DNA from: Acidobacteriota bacterium
GTDB taxonomy: Bacteria > Acidobacteriota > Terriglobia > Terriglobales > Acidobacteriaceae
Direction: 5' to 3'
DNA: 32,263 nt
Assembly: GCA_003225535.1 (NCBI GenBank)
Contig: QIAL01000217.1
Coordinates: 1 to 32,263 of the forward strand
The notes under the pieces are model-generated. The model had not been told where the DNA came from. It did no database searches and saw only the letters and a program-made list of their open reading frames with translations. A program made the position numbers and the translations under genes. Shown here piece after piece: positions 214-27,868 of this stretch (the first letter of the stretch is position 1; the number at the start of each line of letters is the position of its first letter).

Positions 214-283
214 TGTGGGGACAGCCGCCATCGGCTGTCCGCCGAGCAAAGCTCGGCTCGCGGGCAAGAGTGCCCGCGCCACA
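214..283. repeat. Mosaic palindromic element, three adjacent hairpins with TGTGG/CCACA ends
   Basis: Three perfect hairpins follow one another: GGACAGCCG/CGGCTGTCC (219-240), GCCGAGC/GCTCGGC (241-257) and GCGGGCA/TGCCCGC (260-277). The block is bounded by TGTGG on the left and CCACA on the right, so its ends are inverted. Single modules of this element recur at 9423-9475 and 11082-11104 and inside two coding regions (11329-11352 and 14191-14234). It fills the space between etfB and etfA. It could shape the shared messenger RNA, but no function is shown. Confidence 0.85.
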
Positions 284-7802: not shown

Positions 7803-7896
7803 GTAGAGACGTAGCTCGCTAAGTCTCTGTCGGCACCGCCGATGAATTCGATGTTGTAGGCGCCGTCAGCAGAGACGTTGCAAGCAACGTCTCTAC
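7803..7896. repeat. Paired palindrome element (94 bp), second copy
   Basis: It has the same architecture as 1916-2010: an imperfect palindrome (7803-7830), a spacer of about 40 bases ending GTCAGCAGAGACGT, then a perfect palindrome AGAGACGTTGC/GCAACGTCTCT (7871-7894). It lies 10 bases after the deaminase stop and 24 bases before the nuclease start. Confidence 0.85.
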
Positions 7897-11081: not shown

Positions 11082-11136
11082 GGGACAGCCGCCTCGGCTG
11101 TCCCGCGGCCGAGAAAAAGATGGGGCTTTAGCCCCC
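11082..11136. repeat. Two palindromic elements directly upstream of homoserine dehydrogenase
   Basis: GGGACAGCCG/CGGCTGTCCC (11082-11104) is the first module of the TGTGG mosaic family. GGGGC-TTTA-GCCCC (11122-11135) belongs to another family, with relatives near 12350 and at 31504-31517. A TGA in the homoserine dehydrogenase frame (11140-11142) lies just after them. Confidence 0.85.
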
Positions 11137-11187
11137 GTGTGAGGCTCTATCCGCTCCTACAATCTCTGCTTCCTGGGCTACGGAAAC

Positions 11188-12150
11188 GTGAACCGGACGC
11201 TGGTCCGCCTGCTCGATGATCGCTCCGCCGAACTCCGCGACCGTTACGGCATCAAGTTCCGCGTCACCGGCATCGCCTCCCGCCGCTTAGGATGGATCGC
11301 CGATCCAACCGGCATCGATCCCGAAAAATGTGGCACGGGCACTCCTGCCCGCGAAATCTCACCAGGAAGCGTCAGTGTCTGGCTAAAGAGCGCCCAAGCC
11401 GACGTCCTCTTCGAAGCCACATCCCTCAACGTTGAGGACGGCCAGCCCGCCGTCGACCACATCCGCGCCGCCCTCAATCACGGAGCCCACGCCATCACCG
11501 CCAACAAAGGCCCCATCGTCCACGCTTACCGCGAACTCCGCGACCTGGCCGCAGCTAAAGGCAAACGCTTCTTCTTCGAGTCAACCGTAATGGACGGTGT
11601 CCCCATCTTCTCTCTCTTCGACCAACTCCCTACCATCCATCTGCAAGGCTTCCATGGAATCCTGAACTCCACCACCAACGTCATCCTCAGCCAGATGGAA
11701 CAAGGCCTGAGTTTCGACGAAGCGCTAAAGAAAGCGCAGGAACTCGGCGTTGCCGAAACCGATGCCACCCACGATATCGACGGCTGGGACGCCGCCGTAA
11801 AAACCGCAGCCCTGATCACGGTGTTGATGGATACGCCCATCCGCCTCGATCAGATCGCACGCGAAGGCATCCGCGAGCTGACCCCGCAAGCCGTCCGAAA
11901 TGCTAAGCGCGATGGATGGCCCTTCAAACTAGTCTGCCGCGCCAGCCGGACCGAAAACGGCATCGAGGCCAGCGTGAAGCCAGAAAAGATCCTGAGCACG
12001 CAACCGATGGCAAAGATCGCGAACACGTCTTCCTACGTCTACTTCGAAACCGACATCTTCCCCGGCCTCGCCATCACCGAAGAAAATCCTGGCCTCTACG
12101 CAACCGCCTACGGCCTGCTGGCGGATTTCGTAAGAGCAGTCAAAGACTAG
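11188..12150 (+). CDS. hom: Homoserine dehydrogenase, 5' end uncertain
   Basis: The enzyme reduces aspartate semialdehyde to homoserine for threonine and methionine synthesis. Recognisable blocks are FEATSLNVEDGQPA, ITANKGPIVHAYRELRDLAAAKGK, FESTVMDGVPIFSLF, GILNSTTNVILSQMEQG and DATHDIDGWDAAVKTAALI. There is no ACT domain. From the GTG at 11188 the protein has 320 residues but lacks its first beta strand and NAD(P) loop. These are encoded just upstream in the same frame (NLCFLGYGNV, 11161-11190), between a TGA at 11140-11142 and the GTG, with no ATG, GTG or TTG. The true start is either unusual (ATC at 11149 or CTG at 11173) or has been lost. A palindrome-encoded insert (CGTGTPAR) lies at 11329-11352. 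Confidence 0.85.
   Translation: MNRTLVRLLDDRSAELRDRYGIKFRVTGIASRRLGWIADPTGIDPEKCGTGTPAREISPGSVSVWLKSAQADVLFEATSLNVEDGQPAVDHIRAALNHGAHAITANKGPIVHAYRELRDLAAAKGKRFFFESTVMDGVPIFSLFDQLPTIHLQGFHGILNSTTNVILSQMEQGLSFDEALKKAQELGVAETDATHDIDGWDAAVKTAALITVLMDTPIRLDQIAREGIRELTPQAVRNAKRDGWPFKLVCRASRTENGIEASVKPEKILSTQPMAKIANTSSYVYFETDIFPGLAITEENPGLYATAYGLLADFVRAVKD
11329..11352. repeat. Mosaic palindrome module inside the homoserine dehydrogenase coding region
   Basis: TGTGGCACGGGCACTCCTGC and the next four bases closely match the reverse complement of the third module plus end of the intergenic element at 214-283. The hairpin is CGGGCA/TGCCCG (11336-11351). It is translated in frame as CGTGTPAR and keeps the frame open. 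Confidence 0.75.
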
Positions 12151-13235: not shown

Positions 13236-13303
13236 GCCGCATCATGTCATGCGACTTCAGAATTCGCAATAAACGCACTCGTGGTAGAAATATTCAGGCC
13301 ACA

Positions 13304-14626
13304 ATGTCTACCATAACAAACACCGCGCCCGCCTTCGACCTTGCTTATGTCCGCTCTCAGTTTCCGTCTCTCTCGCAGACGGTCAACGGCCGCTCCACCG
13401 CCTTCCTCGATGGCCCCGGCGGCACGCAAGTCCCTCAGCGCGTGATCGACGCCATCTCCGCCTACCTCAGTCACGACAACGCCAATACCGGCGGAGCCTA
13501 CTCCACCAGCCGCAACACCGACGCCATGATCGCGCGCGCGCGTGGCGCCATGGCCGACTTCCTCCATTGCGGCGCCGATGAAGTTGTCTTCGGTCCCAAC
13601 ATGACAAGCCTGACTTTCGCCATCTCCCGCGCAATCGGCCGCGAACTCAAGCCTGGAGACGAAATCCTCGTCACGCGCCTCGATCACGACGCCAACGTCT
13701 CTCCCTGGCTGGCGATGGCGGAAGACCGTGGCGTCACCGTCCGATGGGCCGAGATCCATGACGAAGATTGCACGCTCGACATGTCCGACCTCGCGTCGAA
13801 GATTAATGCCAACACCAGGCTCGTCGCGGTAGGCTACGCCTCGAATGCGGTCGGCACCATCAATCCGGTCCGCGTGATCACGAAACTTGCGCACGCCGTG
13901 GGAGCATTGTGCTACATCGACGCCGTCCACTACGGCCCCCACGGATTGATCGACGTCGCCGCGCTTGATTGCGACTTCCTTGCCTGCTCCACCTATAAAT
14001 TTTTCGGCCCGCACATGGGAGTGCTATACGGCAAGCGCGAGCATCTCAAGCGCCTTCGTCCTTACAAGGTCCGCCCGAACACCAATGCGATTCCAAACTG
14101 CTGGGAGTGGGGCACGCTGAACCACGAATGCATCGCCGGAATCGAAGCTTGCGTGGAATATATTGTCGACCTCGGCCGCCGAGCCGTCGAATGTGGGGAC
14201 GGCCGCCTCGGCCGTCCGTCGAGCGAAGCTCGACAGGTTTCATCCGCCCGCCGGGCAGCCATCGAAGCCGCCTACGCCGCCATCCACGAGCACGAACGCG
14301 CGCTTCTGGAAAAAATGATGAGTGGCCTGCAGACAATCCCCGGCCTGAAAATATACGGCATCACCGATCCCGCCCGATTCGGCGATCGCTGCACCACGTT
14401 CGCCGTCCGCATCGAAGGTCACACCCCGCTGGAACTCGCCACGAAGCTGGGCGACCGCGGATTCTTCACCTGGGACGGCAACTACTACGCGTTGAATCTC
14501 ACCGAGCACCTCGACGTAGAAAAATCCGGAGGCTTCCTCCGCATCGGGCTGGTCCACTACAACACTCCGGACGAGGTCGACCGCCTGCTAGCCACCCTTC
14601 ACGAAATCGTGGGAGGCAGATCGTAG
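13304..14626 (+). CDS. Cysteine desulfurase-like class V aminotransferase (VC1184 subfamily type)
   Basis: A fold-type I PLP enzyme of 440 residues. It begins with the family's FLDGPGGTQVPQRVIDA (35-50) and has NTGGAYSTSR (61-70), VTRLDHDANVSPW (123-135), CYIDAVHYGPHG (203-214, Asp206 for the cofactor nitrogen) and CSTYKFFGPHMG with the Schiff-base Lys232. The C-terminal block FLRIGLVHYNTPDEV is also typical. The subfamily resembles SufS/Csd, but no SufE or scaffold gene is nearby, so desulfurase activity is uncertain. Residues of about 295-315 (VECGDGRLGRPSSEARQV) are encoded by a mosaic palindrome and look like an insertion between GRRA and SARRAAIEAAYA. The ATG at 13304 is favoured over an in-frame start 20 codons earlier, which lacks support. 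Confidence 0.88.
   Translation: MSTITNTAPAFDLAYVRSQFPSLSQTVNGRSTAFLDGPGGTQVPQRVIDAISAYLSHDNANTGGAYSTSRNTDAMIARARGAMADFLHCGADEVVFGPNMTSLTFAISRAIGRELKPGDEILVTRLDHDANVSPWLAMAEDRGVTVRWAEIHDEDCTLDMSDLASKINANTRLVAVGYASNAVGTINPVRVITKLAHAVGALCYIDAVHYGPHGLIDVAALDCDFLACSTYKFFGPHMGVLYGKREHLKRLRPYKVRPNTNAIPNCWEWGTLNHECIAGIEACVEYIVDLGRRAVECGDGRLGRPSSEARQVSSARRAAIEAAYAAIHEHERALLEKMMSGLQTIPGLKIYGITDPARFGDRCTTFAVRIEGHTPLELATKLGDRGFFTWDGNYYALNLTEHLDVEKSGGFLRIGLVHYNTPDEVDRLLATLHEIVGGRS
14191..14234. repeat. Mosaic palindrome inserted in frame in the SufS-like gene
   Basis: Two hairpins, GGACGGCCG/CGGCCGTCC (14197-14217) and GTCGAGC/GCTCGAC (14218-14234), follow ATGTGG in the same order as in the intergenic element at 214-257. 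The DNA is translated as part of VECGDGRLGRPSSEARQV without a stop or frame change. Confidence 0.85.
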
Positions 14627-26018: not shown

Positions 26019-26040
26019 CCGGAACGAGGAACAACGAGGG

Positions 26041-26085
26041 GTGCCCACCCTTGTCGCGATCTAAGCGACAGGGTGGGGTTTTTGA
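26041..26085 (+). terminator. Repeat-derived terminator after the Gfo/Idh/MocA gene
   Basis: CCCACCCTTGTCGC pairs with GCGACAGGGTGGG (26044-26077) and GTTTTTGAC follows. It lies 25 bases after the stop at 26018, so it fits an intrinsic terminator. It is a copy of the element at 26671-26717 and a relative of 14697-14750. Confidence 0.6.
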
Positions 26086-26148
26086 CTTTCTGGTACGGAA
26101 AGAAGGGATTTCAGTTTTAGCACACTGCTCCCCGTCTGAGCGCCTCCG

Positions 26149-26613
26149 TCACTTCTTAAATACGGCATCCAGCGCCGCCTGCGCGATCGCTTCATCGATC
26201 TCCGACTTGGCGCCACTGGCCGCAATGCCCCCGAGTGTTTGGCCGTCGACCTGAATCGGCAGCCCGCCCTGATTAGGGAAGAAATCGGGAAAGGCAAGTA
26301 CCTCCAGCTTCCAAGCCTTCAGAGCATCCGCTCCGTCCTTCGATGGCTTCCGGTACAGCGCCGAGTGTCGCGCCTTCTTCTGTGCGAACTGAATCGTATT
26401 GAGCGACGCGCCATCCGCCTTCTCCAGAAAGAGAAGATTCCCGCTGTCGTCCACAACGCAGATGGTCACTTCAACGTTGAGCTTCTTCGCCTCCGCCTCG
26501 GCCGCGGCCACCAACGCCTTGATCGTGGCCAGGTCAAGGCGCTTCTTGGTTGGGAGTTCAGCGACAGACACGGCCACCATGAAAGTCAGCATCACAACAA
26601 AGAGTTTGCACAT
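26149..26613 (-). CDS. GlcG/HbpS-like (DUF336) protein, exported
   Basis: A 154-residue protein with a short signal peptide (MCKLFVVMLTFMVAVSVAE) and a full GlcG/HbpS-like domain: LATIKALVAAAEAEAKKLNV, TICVVDDSGNLLFLEKADGASLNTIQFAQKKARHSAL, and the end block LPIQVDGQTLGGIAASGAKSEIDEAIAQAALDA. The family includes the extracellular heme-binding HbpS and proteins of glycolate loci (GlcG); a cofactor is not evident here. The ATG at 26613 starts the signal peptide. An upstream in-frame start would translate the palindrome at 26671-26717 and was rejected. The beta-propeller gene lies upstream on the same strand. Confidence 0.87.
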   Translation of the reverse strand: MCKLFVVMLTFMVAVSVAELPTKKRLDLATIKALVAAAEAEAKKLNVEVTICVVDDSGNLLFLEKADGASLNTIQFAQKKARHSALYRKPSKDGADALKAWKLEVLAFPDFFPNQGGLPIQVDGQTLGGIAASGAKSEIDEAIAQAALDAVFKK

Positions 26614-26670
26614 GCCACGGATGCTAGCAGCCGACGTGCCAGTTTTCCAATGCACCTGCTCTGCAGACGC

Positions 26671-26717
26671 GGGTGCCCCACCCTGGTCGCGATTTTTGCG
26701 ACAGGGTGGGGATTTTG
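26671..26717. repeat. Palindromic element GGGTGCCCCACCCT family, copy between glcG-like and propeller genes
   Basis: CCCCACCCTGGTCGC and GCGACAGGGTGGGG (26676-26711) form the stem, with GATTTTGAC after it on the plus strand. Both flanking genes are on the minus strand, so here the T-rich end is on the wrong side for terminating either one. Confidence 0.8.
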
Positions 26718-26749
26718 ACCTCCTACGAATCGTACTGAAAGCCAGATCC

Positions 26750-27868
26750 CTACTTCGGCAGAACAATCAGGTTCTGAACGTTGGGAATCGAGTGCGGTGA
26801 CCCCGGAGCCCGCGTCGCCCCGGTCGAGGTCACCGTCCATACGAACAGCTTTCCTGCCTTCAGGCTGATCGCATACACGTGGTTCGCGTTATCCCAGAAA
26901 ATCTGATCGATCGTGTTCCCCGTCAGAAGCCCGGTGAACTTCGTGATCGGATTCGCTCCATTGAAATGGAAGATCTGGAACCCCGCTGTCCCACCCACGG
27001 CTAAATACTTCCCCGATGGCGACATCGAGTAGTCGTTCACCGCTCCCACAAGCACGGTTGGCATGTTCGAGAACGTGCTCTTTGTGGTCAGATTCCCCGT
27101 AGCGCCTGCTGTGTAAGACGCCAACTGCCACAGGCCATCCTGTCCCCAGTTCGAATTCAGCGGCTCCATCGCAATCGCAAGATGATTCGTCGGATCAGCC
27201 GCCGCCTTCCACGGACAATAGAATCCGCCCGACTTCTCCGCCGGAAATGGGAAGTTGTCGTTCAGGTACGAGAGTGTCCCATCCGTGTTGCGCTTCACCC
27301 CGATGATCTCTTGCCCGAAGTGATAGCAACTGGATGAGTATGCATACACGTTATTTCCGATGAAGCTCACCGGAGTATTGTTCGGTGGGCCTCCCGCCAG
27401 ATCGCCGATCTTCGTCAGGCGTCCGTTGGATTGGTTAATGCTGAACGACAGGTAATCGTTGTTGGTGGTGTAGTAGTCCGCATACAGCGTCTTACCGGTG
27501 TGGTCCAGGTACACGCTGATAACTCCCGGCCCGGGATTCGTCACCTTATACGTGTCTTTGAATGTCAGGGCCCCGTTGGACGCAATCGAGAACGAGTTGA
27601 TGTCAGTGTCCACATTCGCAACACCAAACAGCCATGCTCCATTGAGCGCCATATAGTTCACGTCATATGGAAACGGCGAACCAGGGATAGGTGTCAGCGC
27701 TCCGTTGGAGGCCGCCGCGTACGCGTTGATCTTGCCCGTGCTGCTCGTCGGTGCGCTGGAAACGTACACGTACGCGACGGGGGAAGCAGGGGCCTGAATT
27801 GAATTGGATTCAGTTGGTGAGGGCGTGACCTGAGCGGATGCCAGAACTATGCTGGCGCTGCGAGACAT
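26750..27868 (-). CDS. Beta-propeller protein of the lactonase/YVTN-like type
   Basis: The 372-residue protein contains repeated blades of about 45 residues: AYVYVSSAPTSSTGKINAYAAAS-NGALTPIPGSPFP, INSFSIAS-NGALTFKDTY, LSFSINQS-NGRLTKIGD, IIGVKRNT-DGTLSYLND and ASYTAGATGNLTTK. This is typical of seven-bladed lactonase-like propellers common in Acidobacteriota. It most likely binds or hydrolyses an extracellular substrate, but no catalytic residues stand out. The N-terminus (MSRSASIVLASAQVTPSPTE) lacks the expected signal peptide or lipobox; the frame upstream closes at a TGA without another ATG. The real start may have been lost to a frameshift, or the protein may be cytoplasmic. Confidence 0.8.
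   Translation of the reverse strand: MSRSASIVLASAQVTPSPTESNSIQAPASPVAYVYVSSAPTSSTGKINAYAAASNGALTPIPGSPFPYDVNYMALNGAWLFGVANVDTDINSFSIASNGALTFKDTYKVTNPGPGVISVYLDHTGKTLYADYYTTNNDYLSFSINQSNGRLTKIGDLAGGPPNNTPVSFIGNNVYAYSSSCYHFGQEIIGVKRNTDGTLSYLNDNFPFPAEKSGGFYCPWKAAADPTNHLAIAMEPLNSNWGQDGLWQLASYTAGATGNLTTKSTFSNMPTVLVGAVNDYSMSPSGKYLAVGGTAGFQIFHFNGANPITKFTGLLTGNTIDQIFWDNANHVYAISLKAGKLFVWTVTSTGATRAPGSPHSIPNVQNLIVLPK

Follow-up and report, generated by a model that had tools for sequence, protein, structure and literature searches.

A homoserine dehydrogenase loop recurrently occupied by REP sequences in Candidatus Sulfotelmatobacter-like Acidobacteriota

RESULTS

Repeats within the window and across genomes

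The window, that is, the whole stretch of 32,263 nucleotides that was analyzed, carries a homoserine dehydrogenase (HSD) gene with a short palindromic repeat read in frame inside it, together with related repeats in an aminotransferase gene and in intergenic DNA (Table 1). It belongs to a genome (G000) of 6.83 Mb in 1086 contigs, estimated to be 85% complete. The relatives named below are metagenome-assembled genomes that were submitted under the name Candidatus Sulfotelmatobacter or as other Terriglobia.

Table 1. Positions of the HSD gene, its loop, and repeat elements in the window
Feature	Positions	Strand	Basis or content
Composite intergenic element, REPIN-like inverted pair	214-283		GTGG-tagged REP on + (215-240) and GTGG-tagged REP on - (259-282)
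Copy of the other REP hairpin, untagged or eroded, GGGACAGCCGCCTCGGCTGTCCC	11084-11104		Just 5' of the HSD gene
HSD gene	11149-12150	+	Pfam PF00742 (E 2e-43) and PF03447; start codon context
Variable HSD loop, holding REPs in relatives	11302-11367	+	Approximately residues 52-73 in the protein alignment; alignment, loop tables, pLDDT
REP-derived segment, TGTGGCACGGGCACTCCTGCCCGCGAA	11329-11355	+	In frame, CGTGTPARE; matches the degenerate genomic pattern without mismatch
Second coding REP, TGTGGGGACGGCCGCCTCGGCCGTCC	14192-14217	+	CGDGRLGRP; within aminotransferase class V gene 13244-14626 (Pfam)

The REP-derived segment consists of a GTGG tag (11330-11333) and two arms (approximately 11334-11341 and 11346-11353) in which one pair is broken. 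The preliminary description had noted its likeness to the reverse complement of one end of the composite element, and this was confirmed: at up to three mismatches, a degenerate pattern, TGTGGCRCGGGCACTCYTGCCCGC, matched the window nowhere but at TGTGGCACGGGCACTCCTGCCCGC (11329-11352, +) and TGTGGCGCGGGCACTCTTGCCCGC (260-283, -), and it had no match in 100 shuffles. The composite element itself is an inverted pair of GTGG-tagged REPs, different from each other, with a spacer hairpin, GCCGAGCAAAGCTCGGC, between them. The proposal that two enzyme genes carry pieces of a single element held only in part, since both pieces are coding and both start with TGTGG but they belong to different hairpin families; the HSD and aminotransferase modules each match a different end of the composite element. 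Another palindrome family, tagged with GTAG (GTAGAGACGTTGCAAGCAACGTCT), has several copies outside the main genes (1158-1185, 1916-2010, and 7803-7896), and a 58-bp repeat is present in two copies, 81% alike, at 26034-26091 and 26667-26724, around and in an ORF at 26149-26766.

Pattern TGTGGCRCGGGCACTCYTGCCCGC matched the G000 genome 32 times at up to three mismatches, nine of them exactly, and its reversed control did not match at all. This bears out the suggestion that pieces of a dispersed element lie within coding sequence; its genomic copy number far exceeds chance. The family was found in 36 of 37 congeneric genomes, reaching a maximum of 96 copies in G004 (at up to two mismatches), and in none of 24 genomes outside the genus, which belong to other bacterial families. 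Across all 61 genomes, the reversed pattern had no match.

Identification of the repeat as a RAYT-associated REP

Repetitive extragenic palindromes (REPs) are defined by a GTAG or GTGG tetranucleotide that precedes a hairpin (stem of 7-20, loop of 2-5) by 0-2 nt (PMC6006769). In the genomic consensus, TGTGG-CGCGGGC-RCYCYY-GCCCGCG, the GTGG tag is followed directly by a hairpin (8-bp stem, 4-base loop), a structure that can also be written as GTGG plus CGCGGGC(A/G)CYCYYGCCCGCG. The stem is kept by paired changes in variants of the repeat, such as TGTGGAGCGGGC...GCCCGCT and TGTGGGGCGGGC...GCCCGCC. A gene for a REP-associated tyrosine transposase (RAYT) was identified at C288:2072-2470 of G000 (NF047646, 89.9 bits, cut-off 80), with exact copies of the repeat on either side (2017-2040 and 2634-2657), and the layout of RAYT and repeat on C147 of G001 is similar. 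The two copies on C288 are in direct orientation, whereas classical RAYTs sit between inverted REPs (PMC2817692). The repeat, 24-27 bp long, is a RAYT-associated REP (GTRG tag plus hairpin) dispersed in a Candidatus Sulfotelmatobacter-like genome; further REP families coexist with it. Its movement would probably depend on the RAYT.

The homoserine dehydrogenase and its variable loop

Both HSD domains, PF00742 and PF03447, scored above cut-off, the PDB homologues include 3do5, and homologues at 73-94% are present in 27 congeneric genomes. The first codon is probably ATC (11149-11151). An ATC or ATT start with a GAGG/AGGA-like sequence upstream appears to be conserved between the window and loci L031 and L081-L121; about 30 of the 44 HSD homologues listed have such a start with no in-frame ATG, GTG, or TTG upstream, an in-frame stop lies at most two codons ahead of it in L091 and L111, and two relatives have ATG at this position instead. 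A biosynthetic enzyme with conserved initiation at AUU/AUC would be unusual. The protein is presumably made as read.

The repeat encodes HSD residues 58-66 (CGTGTPARE), which lie in a loop bounded by a strand that ends at residue 48 and a helix that starts at 72. An AlphaFold2 model of the protein had a mean pLDDT of 88.5, and its lowest ten-residue block was 61-70, at 56. The solved archaeal HSD 4ydr is much shorter at this loop. A lineage-specific insert at CGTGTPAR had been predicted, and as a gain in length it was not borne out: the loop (GW...DVL) has 40 residues in G000 versus 41-43 in most Acidiferrales outgroups. Because the G000 loop is no longer than theirs, a clean insertion cannot be read from this gene alone, and either the REP replaced loop sequence or a deletion came after it. 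The residues CGTGTPAR, whose conservation in species lacking the element had been named as evidence against an insert, are absent from the outgroups without the repeat (Acidiferrales and Chloroflexi).

Recurrent occupation of the loop across the genus

Tagged hairpins (GTRG and a hairpin of 7 bp or more) were counted in 49 Terriglobia HSD genes, with codon-shuffled sequences as control; when the tag was not required, the scan proved too permissive beyond the loop and was not used for counts. There were 28 tagged hairpins versus 2.8 in the codon shuffles, and 22 of the 28 were inside the loop. The HSD copy of the window is not among them because of its broken stem pair. With the window's genome and its nearest relative left out, 16 of 30 congeneric HSDs had a tagged hairpin in the loop. 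No hairpin was present at the loop in congeners L094, L095, L104, and L107, and in the Acidiferrales and Chloroflexi outgroups, which have loops of similar length, the table of untagged hairpins contained no REP-like tagged ones.

The loop REPs differ between congeners in family, strand, position, and frame. They occupy two sub-sites, with forward copies starting at alignment columns 56-63 and reverse copies at columns 94-97. Forward copies are read in phases 0 and 1 (CGAGAPARE, VERAPSPA, VGRTLLSD, and VVAGDSPA) and reverse copies in all three phases, 0, 1, and 2 (SRAAAPAPH, WRTGLSAPH, and RGQECPRY). A CGAGAPAR group comprises eight species, and other congeners have a further, likewise dispersed palindrome family in the loop (GGCTTCAGCC type, LKGRGFSRA). 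The E-type REP in the G018 HSD matches a variant with seven copies in G018, two of them exact, including that in the HSD itself. A-type and E-type REPs are of equal length and two compensating shifts apart. REP type differs within the sister pairs L101/L102 (support 98) and L086/L093 (support 97), the former of which also differs in strand. A tree built without the loop requires 16 or more changes of REP state; it is only partly resolved, with many weak branches, and the states were labeled by hand. These data establish the HSD loop as a recurrent site occupied by REPs across species. The HSD loop of the SbA1 genome (L036/L082) contains an in-frame partial duplication, 15 nt long, of the start of the REP (CGAGACGAGTPARE).

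The two closest genomes document erosion at this site. Terriglobia bacterium SRVP_4 (G023) has TATGGCGCGGGCACTCCTGCCCACGAA at the same position in its HSD gene with different base changes (TATGG...GCCCACG), and the segments in G000 and G023 each derive from a perfect REP by one to two changes. Between them, the REP codons show three replacement and no silent differences, and the rest of the gene shows 16 replacement and 61 silent ones. As both copies are eroded and the differences in the REP codons are all replacements, the palindrome is decaying in this lineage and not maintained.

REPs in other genes and their reading frames

Coding copies of this family in G000 were judged from 30 loci. Type-A copies lie within Pfam domains in ThiE, MutM, DnaE (HHH_6), LarC (twice), and a molybdopterin oxidoreductase, and between domains in IspE and a penicillin-binding protein (PBP); in TrpB, PGK, and PilM, the copy lies at the N-terminus and may not be translated. 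Tagged hairpins across the genus numbered 15 in ThiE (0.9 expected from codon shuffles), 15 in MutM (0.75 expected), and 6 in the window's aminotransferase, a weaker version (2.45 expected); since these three genes were chosen for their REP in G000, the counts are biased for that genome and not for the others. In ThiE and MutM, the REPs are clustered across the genus at fixed sites with different REP versions, and the direct REPs on the plus strand mostly hold one phase. Within the hairpin loop of some coding REPs, in MutM (L169 and L174) and ThiE (L209 and L214), a repeat of 20-21 nt (CTTCGACAAGCTCAGGGCAGG or its complement) is nested in frame. The LarC nickel-insertion protein (L022/L030, G000 C790:2899-3021) has two in-frame REPs, oppositely oriented, on either side of a His-rich stretch.

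All six frames of the repeat are free of stop codons. Coding copies in G000 use the forward frames CGAGAPARE (ThiE, IspE, and HSD) and VARALLPA (MutM, DnaE, LarC, and PBP) and the reverse frames SRAKAPAPH (LarC) and SARAT (molybdopterin oxidoreductase). The two frames that yield peptides rich in Trp, His, and Cys were not seen among G000 coding copies, and one of these (RGQECPRH) is used in other Terriglobia HSDs. The preliminary description had suggested an element that tolerates coding insertion in one particular frame. That idea has to be abandoned, both for G000, with at least four frames, and for the relatives, in whose HSDs five combinations of strand and phase occur. With four of the six frames in use in G000, the bias is against a few frames and not toward one.

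DISCUSSION

The identity of the repeat, its in-frame position, and its location in the loop are direct observations. We consider it very likely that the REP sits in a flexible, dispensable surface loop of HSD that repeatedly gains, overwrites, and erodes such elements. On the simplest account, REPs would insert in or overwrite coding sites, probably through the RAYT; selection would then remove copies at sensitive positions and leave those in floppy loops that keep the frame, and the copy in the HSD loop would be translated as a tolerated peptide. Tolerance of the loop, and not a function of the peptide, would account for retention of the REPs.

A single ancient insertion into HSD, inherited vertically and altered by compensatory mutation and small indels with no hotspot involved, would fit the eight-species CGAGAPAR group and the plus-strand sites in ThiE and MutM, which are constant in position and mostly of one phase, as an old insertion followed by drift would leave them. 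For HSD we regard it as unlikely, given REPs that use both strands and two sub-sites and show five strand/phase states, given supported sister species that bear different REPs, and given the two compensating shifts that separate A-type from E-type REPs; the match between the G018 HSD and a multicopy variant of its own genome also argues against it. The recurrence of hairpins at the same place in many species could instead reflect selection for a hairpin with an RNA or DNA function in the HSD gene, such as mRNA stability or pausing, that re-evolves there. Erosion of the arms in the window's own lineage, the congeners with no hairpin at this place, the use of both strands, and the occurrence of similar elements in unrelated genes make this quite improbable.

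Two trivial explanations carry almost no weight. The loop is rich in Gly, Ala, and Pro codons, and GC-rich coding sequence of this kind might resemble the repeat by chance, but the shuffle and reversed-pattern controls and the common GTRG tag refute this. An assembly artifact might be suspected in a metagenome-assembled genome of so many contigs; the chance of this is negligible, as the site recurs in assemblies made independently in different studies, among them a 176-kb contig of SRVP_4, with the frame always open.

The constant-phase sites of ThiE and MutM may reflect either one old insertion with drift or replacement of one REP by another; the A and E versions, equal in length and two compensating shifts apart, favor replacement. 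A stronger form, in which a lodged REP is the preferred target and is overwritten in situ at the same length by the RAYT or by REP-to-REP conversion, strikes us as somewhat doubtful. If it were true, enzyme loops in the genus would track the current REP population of the genome.

REPs are named for their extragenic position, and their mode of movement is still under debate. A well-aligned enzyme loop in which many species carry different REPs lets gains and losses be mapped onto a tree and compared with the rest of the gene, and it offers direct material on REP insertion or replacement and on selfish DNA that gives enzymes new peptide segments. In the open-licence PMC papers searched, neither coding REPs in this bacterial group nor recurrent colonization of one enzyme loop across a genus had been described.

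Rickettsia palindromic elements (RPEs) are long, about 100-150 bp, and occur in proteins of Rickettsiales. The HSD-type repeats resemble them as selfish palindromes read as part of a protein and differ in being 24-27 bp long, GTRG-tagged, and RAYT-linked; identity with an RPE was rejected on the grounds of this length and their presence in Acidobacteriota. RPE-4 and RPE-6 have been counted as CGTC REPs, and RPE-1 was described as longer (PMC3733652). With REP/RAYT systems, REPINs, and BIMEs (PMC2817692, PMC6006769), the elements described here share a GT[AG]G tag beside a hairpin, many copies, inverted pairs (the composite element of the window), and a RAYT flanked by copies. They differ in copy number, with 32 copies in G000 versus the more than 100 per genome that are usual for REPs (PMC2817692), and in the sizeable share of copies inside genes. 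The closest parallel is with intragenic GTAG/CGTC REPs, known to be in frame (Di Nocera et al. 2013, PMC3733652), which are likewise short tagged palindromes inside genes and for which two Xanthomonas species were described as sharing a site in recB (PMC3733652). The REPs of HSD are the same kind of element and result from the same kind of event. What differs is their setting in a biosynthetic enzyme of Acidobacteriota, in which one loop has been colonized many times across a genus by REPs of varied families, strands, and frames.
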